DNA of 64,000 nt from NCBI RefSeq assembly GCF_022024115.1, contig NZ_CP091792.1, forward strand, positions 1,860,001 through 1,924,000, written 5' to 3'. The notes under the pieces were generated by a model. That model saw only the letters and a list, made by a program, of their open reading frames with translations. It searched no databases and was not told the DNA's origin. The translations under genes were made by a program, and so were the position numbers. The DNA comes from Prevotella communis (GTDB lineage Bacteria > Bacteroidota > Bacteroidia > Bacteroidales > Bacteroidaceae). Positions 47,789-53,916 of this stretch are shown one piece after another (within the stretch, counting starts at the first letter, position 1; each line of letters begins with the position of its first letter).

Positions 47789-49398
47789 TTACAGTAACCA
47801 ATCTGGCGATTCAATTTGGTAAGAAGGTTCTCTACAAGGACGTGAACCTGAAGTTTACAAGTGGTAACATCTACGGCATCATCGGTGCCAACGGTGCCGG
47901 TAAGTCTACCCTGCTCCGTGCTATCAGCGGAGAGCTGGAGCCCAACAAGGGTACTATCGAGATGCTGCCTGGCGAGCGCATGAGTGTGCTTGAGCAGGAC
48001 CACTTCAAATACGATGAATTCTCTGTGATGAACACGGTGCTGATGGGACATCAACCACTGTGGGAGAATATGAAGGAGCGCGAGGCCCTCTATGCCAAGC
48101 CCGAAATGAGCGAGGAGGATGGCGTGCGCGCAGCTGAACTGGAGATGGCGTTTGCCGAGATGAACGGCTGGGAAGCCGAGAGCGAGGCAGCCCAACTACT
48201 TCAGAACCTGGGTATCAAGGAAGATATGCACTATGCACAAATGTCAGATATCTCTAATAATGAGAAGGTACGTGTGATGCTGGCTAAGGCCCTCTTTGGC
48301 CACCCCGACAACCTGTTGCTCGACGAGCCCACCAACGACCTCGACCTCGACACCGTGCAGTGGCTTGAGGAGTACCTCAGCGGCCTGGAGCAGTGTGTGC
48401 TCGTGGTCTCTCACGACCGTCACTTCCTCGATGCCGTCTCTACCCAGACCGTAGATATCGACTTCGGCAAGGTGACCCTCTTCTCTGGTAACTACTCCTT
48501 CTGGTACGAGTCCAGTCAGCTGGCTCTGCGCCAGGCCCAGAACCAGAAGATGAAGGCCGAGGAGAAGCGCAAGCAGCTCGAGGAATTCATCCGTCGTTTC
48601 TCTGCCAACGTGGCAAAATCAAAGCAAACCACTTCTCGAAAGAAGATGCTCGAAAAGCTTAATGTTGAGGAGATTACACCCTCTACACGTAAGTATCCCG
48701 GCATCATCTTCCAGATGGAGCGCGAGCCTGGTACACAGATTCTCGAGGTAGAAGGACTGAAGGCCGTAGATGCCGATGGCACCGTCCTCTTCGACAACGT
48801 GAACTTCACCATCGAGAAGGGTCAGAAGACCGTGTTCCTGTCTCACAACCCCAAGGCTATGACCGCCCTCTTCGAGATTATCAATGGCAACCGTGAGGCC
48901 CAGGCCGGTACCTATAAGTGGGGTGTTACCATCACCACCGCCTACCTGCCCCTCGACAATACCGATTTCTTCCAGAGCGAGATGAACCTCGTCGACTGGC
49001 TCAGCCAGTGGGGACCCGGCAACGAAGTCACCATGAAGTCGTTCCTCGGTCGTATGCTCTTCAAGGAAGAGGACGTGCTGAAGCATGTCAACGTGCTCAG
49101 CGGTGGTGAGAAGATGCGTTGTATGATTGCCCGCATGCAGTTGAAGAATGCCAACTGTCTGATTCTCGACACCCCCACCAACCACCTCGACCTGGAGTCT
49201 ATTCAGGCCTTCAACAACAACCTGATCCAGTTCAAGGGCAACATCCTCTTTGCCTCTCACGACCACGAGTTCATCAATACCGTGGCCGACCGCATCATCG
49301 AGCTCACGCCTAAGGGCACCATCGACAAGCTCATGAGCTATGATGACTATATCTACGACGAGGCCATCAAGGAGCAGAAAGCCAAGATGTACGAATAA
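47785..49398 (+). CDS. ABC-F protein (YbiT/YkpA-like) with asymmetric ATP sites
   Basis: A 537-residue duplicated ABC ATPase without membrane spans, of the ribosome-associated ABC-F type. NBD1 has Walker [15 protein letters not shown] and Walker [12 protein letters not shown], but its signature reads ISNNEK instead of LSGGE. NBD2 has a canonical signature ([14 protein letters not shown]), but its P-loop reads [11 protein letters not shown], without the lysine, and Walker B reads [11 protein letters not shown], with Thr for the catalytic Glu. One composite site is thus intact and one is degenerate. The last 85 bp are repeated exactly at 53832-53916. Confidence 0.9.
49314..49398 (+). repeat. 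85-bp direct repeat, left copy (ABC-F 3' end)
   Basis: Identical to 53832-53916 base for base. It starts at GGGCACCATCGACAAGC and ends with the ABC-F stop codon. The next base differs between the copies. The 4.5 kb between them carries dinB to crcB. Confidence 0.97.
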
Positions 49399-49425
49399 TA
49401 TTATTCCCCTATCCACTATACAAAT

Positions 49426-49455
49426 GCAGCTACATTCCAAAGTGTTTGTAGCTGC
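49426..49455. repeat. Inverted repeat upstream of dinB
   Basis: GCAGCTACA (49426-49434) and TGTAGCTGC (49447-49455) with a 12-nt loop, 14 bp before the dinB ATG. It could be an operator or part of a terminator for ABC-F; the T-tract is weak. No -7 element is visible nearby. Confidence 0.6.
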
Positions 49456-49468
49456 TATTATTATAGCA

Positions 49469-50557
49469 ATGAAGATTATTCATGTGGACATGGACCAGTT
49501 CTTTGCGGCTGTAGAACAGCGTGACAATCCAGAACTGAAAGGCAAGCCAATAGCTGTTGGCCACGATGCAGAGCGTGGTGTGGTCTCAACAGCAAGCTAT
49601 GAGGCACGTCGTTTCGGCGTTCATTCTGCCCAGTCCATACAGGTGGCCAAAAGACTCTGTCCGCAGCTCATCATCGTGGAACCGCATTTCCAGCGGTATA
49701 AGGAGGTGTCGGTGCAGTTACATGGAATATTTCACGATTATACGGATCTCATCGAACCAATCTCGCTTGACGAGGCATTCCTTGATGTGACGGAGAATAA
49801 GAAAGGAATTGATTTGGGTGTTGAGATAGCAAGGGAAATCAAGCAGCGCATTTTGGAGACGACAGGACTGACTGCCTCTGCTGGCGTGAGTTACTGCAAG
49901 TTCCTGGCAAAAATTGCCTCTGACTGGCGTAAACCGGATGGCTTGACAGTTATCCATCCTGACCGGGCTTTGGATTTCATCGCTCAACTGAAGGTGGAGA
50001 AGATTTGGGGTGTTGGCAACAAGACGGCTGAGAAGATGCACCGCATGGGCATCTTTACCGGAGCAGACTTGAGAAAGGTGTCACTTGCTCGTTTGAATCA
50101 GGAATTTGGTAAGATGGGCAGCGTGTTCCACGATTTTGCCAACGGCATTGATACACGCCCCGTCATATCTGAATGGGAGCGCAAATCGGTCAGCTGTGAA
50201 CGGACTTTTGAGAAGGATATCTTCGACAATGCTGCTGTCACCATCCATCTGTATCATACAGTCCTGGAGCTAGTACGCCGAATTGAGAAGGCTGACTTTG
50301 AAGGGCATACCTTGACACTCAAAGTAAAATTCCAAGACTTTCAGCAAATCACACGCAGCGTAACTGTTGATTATATCCTCAGGACAAAGGAAGATATTCT
50401 TCCATTGGCTAAACAACTGATGGGCGATGTAGAATTTCATTCGCATCCCATCCGTTTGTTAGGACTAGGAGTAGCCAACCAAAAGTCTTCAACTGTTCAC
50501 GAGGATCCCCGTTGGGTGGAACTTGAACTAGAGTTCGAACCGTGGCCAGAGGCTTAG
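49469..50557 (+). CDS. dinB: DNA polymerase IV
   Basis: Y-family translesion polymerase of 362 residues. The catalytic motifs are IHVDMDQFFAAVEQRDN, VVSTASYEARRFGVHSAQSI and ISLDEAFLDVTENKKG. ASAGVSYCKFLAKIASDWRK follows, with a helix-hairpin-helix in KIWGVGNKTAEKMHRMGI. The start is set at 49469 (MKIIHVDMD); the longer frame from 49340 runs back into the ABC-F tail and has no homology. It is the first gene inside the repeat-flanked block. Confidence 0.93.
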   Translation: MKIIHVDMDQFFAAVEQRDNPELKGKPIAVGHDAERGVVSTASYEARRFGVHSAQSIQVAKRLCPQLIIVEPHFQRYKEVSVQLHGIFHDYTDLIEPISLDEAFLDVTENKKGIDLGVEIAREIKQRILETTGLTASAGVSYCKFLAKIASDWRKPDGLTVIHPDRALDFIAQLKVEKIWGVGNKTAEKMHRMGIFTGADLRKVSLARLNQEFGKMGSVFHDFANGIDTRPVISEWERKSVSCERTFEKDIFDNAAVTIHLYHTVLELVRRIEKADFEGHTLTLKVKFQDFQQITRSVTVDYILRTKEDILPLAKQLMGDVEFHSHPIRLLGLGVANQKSSTVHEDPRWVELELEFEPWPEA

Positions 50558-50579
50558 TGCCATTCCATATATTAACAAG

Positions 50580-50614
50580 AATCCCTGGCCTGCTAAGCAA
50601 GTCAGGGATTTACT
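50580..50614. terminator. Terminator between dinB and the PNPOx-like gene
   Basis: AATCCCTG (50580-50587) pairs with CAGGGATT (50603-50610), followed by T-rich sequence. The 25-nt core differs by one base from the terminator at 52,198. Confidence 0.75.
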
Positions 50615-50648
50615 TTTGTCAGGTCCAAACCTCATAGCCTTAAGCTAA

Positions 50649-53242: not shown

Positions 53243-53271
53243 TTCTTTACTGAAAATCGGTTTTGCTGGGG

Positions 53272-53309
53272 CAAAAATACATAATTCTGCCCGATTTTTC
53301 GTACTTTTG
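53272..53309. promoter_or_regulatory. Divergent -7 elements, zinc ribbon / crcB
   Basis: TATTTTTG on the minus strand (53279-53272) faces the zinc-ribbon gene, and TACTTTTG on the plus strand (53302-53309) faces crcB. The crcB leader is only about 20 nt, too short for a fluoride riboswitch. Confidence 0.6.
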
Positions 53310-53329
53310 CAGCAAAATTGCAATTAAAG

Positions 53330-53698
53330 ATGATTAGAAATCTGTTATTGGTAGCATTAGGTGGAGCCGTCGGGTCTGTATTAAGATATCTGATATCTTC
53401 TTTGAATACCTCATTCCCTTGGGGTACTTTCGCCGTTAATATACTTGGCTCCCTGCTGATAGGACTTTTGGTTGGCTTCGTAAGCAAGGGAGTGCTGTCA
53501 CCTGAAATGAAACTGCTGCTCGTGACTGGTTTCTGTGGTGGTTTCACCACATTCAGCACTTTTGCCAGCGAATCCTTTGGCATGATAAAGGCAGGTGATG
53601 CCCTGCAGATGGCTCTTTATGTTGCAGCCAGTGTTATTGTCGGTATCATGGCAGTCTGGAGCGGCATGGTACTCTCAAATCATCTCATTCGTGGATAG
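53330..53698 (+). CDS. crcB: Fluoride channel CrcB/Fluc
   Basis: A 122-residue, four-span inner-membrane protein that exports fluoride as an antiparallel dimer. It starts MIRNLLLVALGGAVGSVLRY, with the conserved GAVGSVLRY. The next conserved segment is PWGTFAVNILGSLLIGLLVG, carrying the channel Asn. LLVTGFCGGFTTFSTFASES, with the TTFSTF pore motif and Phe box, completes the family. The start at 53330 is used rather than 53318, which would begin in the promoter region. Confidence 0.93.
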   Translation: MIRNLLLVALGGAVGSVLRYLISSLNTSFPWGTFAVNILGSLLIGLLVGFVSKGVLSPEMKLLLVTGFCGGFTTFSTFASESFGMIKAGDALQMALYVAASVIVGIMAVWSGMVLSNHLIRG

Positions 53699-53702
53699 CA
53701 GT

Positions 53703-53861
53703 ATGACGCTCCGTGAACTCATAAACTCAGTTGATGCAGAGCAATATAGTGAATCAACACTATTCCTGCAGCTCACAAAGACCAAACCCGAATATGGCAC
53801 CAACCGACATATTCAGGTGGCCGAGTCAGATGGGCACCATCGACAAGCTCATGAGCTATGA
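53703..53861 (+). pseudogene. Truncated gene joined to ABC-F tail
   Basis: An ORF starts 4 bp after crcB (MTLRELINSVDAEQYSESTL), and its opening looks like the start of a real gene. At 53832 it runs into the copied ABC-F 3' end in another frame, and it stops after GHHRQAHEL at 53861. About 43 codons of the original gene remain. I do not recognise the family. It is the broken right end of the repeat-flanked block. Confidence 0.6.
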
Positions 53862-53916
53862 TGACTATATCTACGACGAGGCCATCAAGGAGCAGAAAGC
53901 CAAGATGTACGAATAA
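53832..53916 (+). repeat. 85-bp direct repeat, right copy (ABC-F tail)
   Basis: Exact copy of 49314-49398, still coding [20 protein letters not shown] and its stop codon in the third frame, but with no upstream ABC-F gene. A terminator lies 20 bp past it, where an ABC-F terminator would be expected. Confidence 0.97.

Follow-up and report, generated by a model that had tools for sequence, protein, structure and literature searches.

How does the 3′ end of one gene come to stand twice on a chromosome, with a block of other genes between its copies? The question is posed by a 64,000-nucleotide stretch of the Prevotella communis chromosome (contig NZ_CP091792.1, positions 1,860,001–1,924,000; hereafter the window), in which the last 85 bp of a gene for an ABC-F ATPase, stop codon included, recur with 85 of 85 bases identical at a start-to-start spacing of 4518 bp. 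The two copies enclose a block of 4433 bp, and block plus copies occupy genome positions 1,909,314–1,913,916 (window coordinates are collected in Table 1). A preliminary description of this DNA had read the block as a possible element integrated at the ABC-F 3′ end, naming a tandem duplication or a recombination with a relative as the alternative. Its repeat and gene list hold, its integrating element does not, and its alternative fits better: judging from the sequences, we hold with moderate confidence that an illegitimate, unequal recombination with same-species DNA left the second copy behind as an orphan ABC-F 3′ end.

The repeated gene end, its border and its flanks

The chromosome of this rumen Prevotella is a single contig of 3,567,699 bp, and a search of it placed the repeat at exactly two sites, with no third copy. 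When the whole window was scanned for direct repeats (at least 40 bp, 28-bp seeds), two families emerged, the 85-bp pair and one low-complexity array. A run of 85 identical bases is not attributable to chance. As the preliminary description stated, copy 2 has no ABC-F gene in front of it; it is preceded instead by a truncated open reading frame (ORF), here called X′. Neither X′ nor the hairpin that follows copy 1 figured in that description.

This ORF starts at 53703 and directly precedes copy 2, where it is cut after ~43 codons and continues out of frame into the ABC-F tail. Intact X in relatives encodes 111–113 a.a. with a similar start (MTLRELI...; 12 intact copies displayed), and the one intact copy tested gave no Pfam match. 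Given that X is cut mid-gene at copy 2, the right border of the block is an illegitimate joint within a gene, and the joint likewise falls inside ABC-F, 85 bp upstream of its stop codon. At this point, X reads GATGGnAACATC in the genomes G346, G266, G338, G350, and G278, and ABC-F reads AAGGGCACCATC. The bases common to both number two (GG), or three (GGG) if X was as in G278, for which chance suffices easily. A non-homologous joint with this little homology is what is expected of a scar of the homology-facilitated illegitimate recombination (HFIR) type.

Within the genome collections searched, which hold one genome per species, the nearest relative found was G112 (90.8% identity over 10 kb; 95% over ABC-F and its start). 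We compared the 70 bases after the stop codon of its ABC-F gene with those after each copy in the window, using 1000 base shuffles. Against the copy-1 flank, the score was 23.0 (shuffle mean 5.6; reached by none of 1000 shuffles), with an alignment that takes in the hairpin at an equal position, and against the copy-2 flank it was 5.5, a value reached by 321 of 1000 shuffles. The G112 flank and both window flanks form hairpins far more stable than their shuffles (−18.7 kcal/mol, z −4.7 for copy 1; −31.4 kcal/mol, z −7.4 for copy 2), and a terminator scan of 49300–54100 with a loop limit of 8 flagged neither window hairpin. Copy 1 thus keeps the flank of the sister-genome type, which reverses the polarity assumed in the preliminary description. 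There, the terminator after copy 2 had been taken as that of the ABC-F operon; a strong hairpin is indeed present, but since strong hairpins follow both copies and the G112 match occurs only at copy 1, it is no proof of an old ABC-F operon end. Neither searching G000 and G112 for further occurrences of the copy-2 terminator nor inspecting the dinB surroundings in G112 was informative.

In the proposed event, one molecule would have carried ABC-F, its terminator, and the block as far as X′, and its far end would have become attached within the ABC-F gene carried by a second molecule of the same species. Either molecule may have been donor DNA taken up by the cell, with the roles reversible. The complete ABC-F gene of the first molecule would be retained; from the second ABC-F, the final 85 bp, together with their own downstream sequence, would be displaced 4.5 kb downstream. 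No integrase would be required, and X would be broken by the same event. Under this proposal, different flanks behind the two ABC-F copies explain why the repeat extends no further than the stop codon. Given the 85/85 identity of the window copies, compared to three differences in G112, a same-species partner and a recent event are probable. Divergence from G112 at third codon positions is 12.1% in ABC-F; the DEAD-box gene (20.1%) and clpB (23.1%), both upstream, diverge more. The lower ABC-F value is consistent with an exchange over ABC-F, and codon constraint could also cause it.

Several observations weigh against the exchange. Among 93 loci examined, only two others had clpB and ABC-F genes to compare; their divergence ratios were 0.79 and 0.85, compared to 0.52 for G112, but both loci are much more distant and decide nothing. 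A donor as distant as G112 would make 85/85 identity unlikely, and two flank types within one species must therefore be assumed. The ABC-F flank of G266 resembles neither window flank (scores 3.0 and 4.5), and neither parental arrangement (ABC-F followed by dinB, or ABC-F followed by the copy-2 flank) was found in the genomes searched. A templated patch would also account equally well for the stop-codon boundary.

Alternatives to the proposed unequal exchange

In such a patch, ~200 bp in the 3′ portion of X would have been replaced by a copy of the 85-bp ABC-F end, through template switching or short strand annealing at short matches, so that the copy-2 flank would be the old flank of X. Exact identity would be expected, copy 1 would retain its G112-type flank, and the boundary would be accounted for by the similar ends of the two genes (X reads CAGAAAGCAAARATYATCAGATAA in 4 of the 12 intact copies displayed, and ABC-F reads CAGAAAGCCAAGATGTACGAATAA). 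However, the copy-2 flank lies behind none of these 12 intact X genes, and because of this we rank the patch, a rather unlikely route, below the exchange. A length of 85 bp is also long for templated patches. Short-patch double illegitimate recombination, in which a short ectopic copy with short matches at its ends is set into a gene, differs from the present case on the same two counts, and its name gave no match in the literature searched.

Less likely still is a tandem duplication between sister chromosomes of the segment from the ABC-F end to X′, with later deletion of most of the second unit, leaving 85 bp. The X′/ABC-F joint is shaped like a duplication joint, with both genes cut inside, copy 1 would keep its flank, and exact identity would again be expected. 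This route, however, needs two events and a deletion end that coincides exactly with the stop codon, and no intermediate was seen.

We also weighed an assembly or strain-mixing error at an 85-bp overlap, which we judge improbable. With the X′ chimera as the query, a large protein collection yielded six short relatives, none of which carries the fused end seen in the window, and this counts on the side of an error. Nevertheless, the genome forms one contig, with 99.31% completeness and 0.83% contamination, and the joint lies inside a broken gene rather than where two intact ends overlap.

An integrating element or cassette with its attachment site at the ABC-F 3′ end, the reading of the preliminary description, is very unlikely. 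Elements of the SCCmec, ICESt1, and tRNA types integrate at gene 3′ ends and duplicate the 3′ end with its stop codon at both borders, and the exact duplication here, stop codon included, would suit such an element. In this locus, however, the border breaks gene X and the flank polarity is opposite, with copy 1 and not copy 2 sharing the G112 flank. The absence of an integrase from the block, already remarked in the preliminary description, was borne out: of the eight block ORFs submitted to Pfam, none is a recombinase. The nearest matches to the tyrosine recombinase profile (PF00589) in the whole genome lie ~274 kb from the block on one side and ~279 kb on the other (genome positions 2,187,544 and 1,630,250; serine recombinases were not searched genome-wide).

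The related genomes searched offered no empty site, no other cargo between the same ends, and, apart from the G103 case below, no doubled end. With the last 199 bp of ABC-F as the query, 267 of 299 genus genomes gave a match, with mostly two candidates scored per genome. All 23 non-window genomes with two matches, plus seven others, were searched again with more candidates; the extra matches were short pieces of 24–56 bp, except in G103 (6% contamination), which has a second full-length match, and G234, which has two overlapping partial matches on different contigs. A 269-base query of copy 2 plus its flank matched 197 of 397 genomes (a set overlapping with the former), and among the matches listed, only that of the window itself extended beyond query position 96. 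We further inspected the best 80 named loci around ABC-F, the first being that of Prevotella ruminicola KHT3 (97% protein identity) and some extending <2 kb downstream. None has ABC-F joined to the copy-2 flank and none has a doubled ABC-F end (one end detectable by blastn in 69, none in 11), and no downstream match to the block occurred among the matches listed (at most six per locus). The joint had no exact match in viral contigs, and the plasmid collection gave nothing relevant. We therefore reject a site-specific cassette at the ABC-F end, given no recombinase among the block ORFs tested, no tyrosine recombinase match nearby, and no empty site or doubled end in the loci and genomes searched. 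It is very doubtful that rumen Prevotella possess an undescribed, integrase-free swapping of genes with terminators at stop codons, of which the ABC-F tail and the dinB terminator, which in G266 stands behind an apparently unrelated gene from the stop codon onward, would be two products.

Genes and mosaic make-up of the block

Of the genes listed in the preliminary description, Pfam confirmed dinB, PNPOx, cupin, HxlR, hsp20, and crcB, whereas the zinc ribbon matched only below the cut-offs (Table 1).

Table 1. Features of the ABC-F locus, in window coordinates.
Feature	Position	Strand	Basis or remark
ABC-F ATPase gene, intact, source of the repeat	47785..49398	+	Pfam ABC_tran (2 stretches), ABC_tran_Xtn
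Repeat copy 1, gene 3′ end with stop codon	49314..49398	+	exact match to copy 2
Block between the copies	49399..53831		4433 bp
Copy-1 flank, 66 bp with hairpin	49399..49464	+	homologous to G112 ABC-F flank
dinB	49469..50557	+	Pfam; G112 similarity begins at 49465
dinB stop codon plus terminator-like tail	50551..50622	+	tail also after an unrelated G266 gene (by eye), common from GGCTTAG onward
PNPOx-type protein	50649..51113	-	PF01243
Cupin	51107..51562	-	PF07883
HxlR-type regulator	51782..52126	+	PF01638
Y′, gene head	52146..52193	+	broken after ~16 codons; relatives found by motif
hsp20	52249..52677	-	PF00011
Zinc-ribbon-like ORF	52949..53242	-	HypA and zinc-ribbon matches, all below cut-offs
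crcB	53330..53698	+	PF02537
X′, first 43 codons of a ~112-a.a. gene	53703..53831	+	no Pfam match
Repeat copy 2, orphan 3′ end of ABC-F, not in frame with X′	53832..53916	+	exact match to copy 1
Copy-2 flank, strong hairpin then T	53917..54002	+	dissimilar to G112 ABC-F flank
Transglutaminase-like protein adjoining copy 2	54025..55086	-	PF01841

Compared with its relatives, the block has a mosaic make-up. In G278, where ABC-F is 85% identical, the PNPOx-cupin-HxlR piece reaches 97% identity over 1443 bp, and in G034 (ABC-F 83%) its first 713 bp are 97% and its next 694 bp 84% identical. This patchwork, and the break in a second gene (Y), speak for the proposed exchange. The PNPOx-cupin-HxlR piece, hsp20, the zinc ribbon, crcB, and X occur in other orders in relatives. 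The dinB match in G112 starts just before the start codon, and the sequence upstream of dinB in G112 is missing at this place in the window; dinB relatives were never beside ABC-F among the matches listed for 19 genomes, the nearest lying 28 kb off, in G218. Beyond copy 2, the transglutaminase gene has no close relative in 398 genomes (best 69%), and in the five best genomes its relatives lie on a contig other than that of ABC-F or >1.8 Mb distant.

Gene X is broken in other genomes as well, at differing points. In G034 and G218 it is cut at ~codon 40, 7 bp before the break in the window, and joined to the end of a PNPOx gene, where G278 has a full-length X, and one copy in G346 breaks late in the gene. 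Given this variation, we rejected X as a fixed recombination site. Five of the six short relatives from the protein collection break at ~codons 33–40, and the sixth (P0003) is unbroken up to residue 61 on a 552-base contig; since the search returned only proteins of similar length, a clustering of breaks cannot be judged from it. Two of these proteins, P0005 and P0006, have an X head fused to an apparent Y tail, as judged by eye. In the window, the Y′ head (MTDYNSIWRTQDEIR...) runs into terminator-like sequence, and eight other copies of Y were found by motif in the fetched loci (duplicates of one place counted once), seven of 78 a.a. and one of 54 a.a.

Further features were noted in and around the block. 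A terminator-like hairpin occurs both after dinB (50580–50617) and beside the hsp20 end (52195–52232), with 89% identity. The segment 60615–64000 is collinear with G266 1,856,932–1,860,467 at 85–94% identity, whereas G266 has its ABC-F gene at 1,663,528; segments lying apart in that genome are thus brought together in the window. Positions 55175–55846, 56660–56712, 56678–57198, and 60275–60361 carry low-complexity arrays (CATCAGACATCAG...) and dispersed repeats, which have many relatives in other parts of the genome. At G000 1,803,078–1,804,173, we noted a toxin-antitoxin-like pair (recognized from its ORFs) that is 98% identical to a pair downstream of the G112 ABC-F gene, compared to 91% for the ABC-F surroundings, and is possibly mobile; being such a pair and not the other half of the exchange, it was rejected as the reciprocal joint.

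Relation to known systems and meaning

HFIR is reported in Pseudomonas, Streptococcus, and Acinetobacter (PMC5361080) and in E. coli conjugation (PMC3240628). The proposed event resembles HFIR in its one-sided homologous anchor, the non-homologous joint opposite, and the genes added. It differs in that the event is here read from sequence alone and the identity of the copies calls for a same-species partner.

In the type VI secretion system (T6SS) arrays of Vibrio cholerae, a new module anchored in conserved DNA shifts the 3′ end of the old gene downstream, HFIR is offered as a possible mechanism, and Rhs loci show orphaned 3′ regions (PMC5361080). Module entry after a conserved anchor, with the old 3′ end moved downstream, is common to these arrays and to the event proposed here. 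In contrast, the anchor is here an ABC-F gene, a single event is proposed, and no toxin or immunity gene was recognized among the block genes. In Streptococcus pneumoniae, tandem duplications triggered by transformation are reported to arise through unequal crossing-over with same-species or own DNA; these span ~100–900 kb and start from repeats, unlike the 85 bp seen here (PMC3784515). A literature search by title gave no report of the present case, and Prevotella combined with illegitimate recombination gave unrelated titles only.

The locus thus adds one more example to a type of event already known. It is probably real and recent and probably has no function; it has the look of an accidental recombination scar rather than the edge of a mobile element, and is mostly ordinary. 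Duplication of a gene 3′ end together with its stop codon is usually read as the hallmark of an integrating element, whereas here the broken partner gene and the flanks point to plain illegitimate recombination. As such, the locus offers a small example of reshuffling in an accessory gene region of rumen Prevotella.

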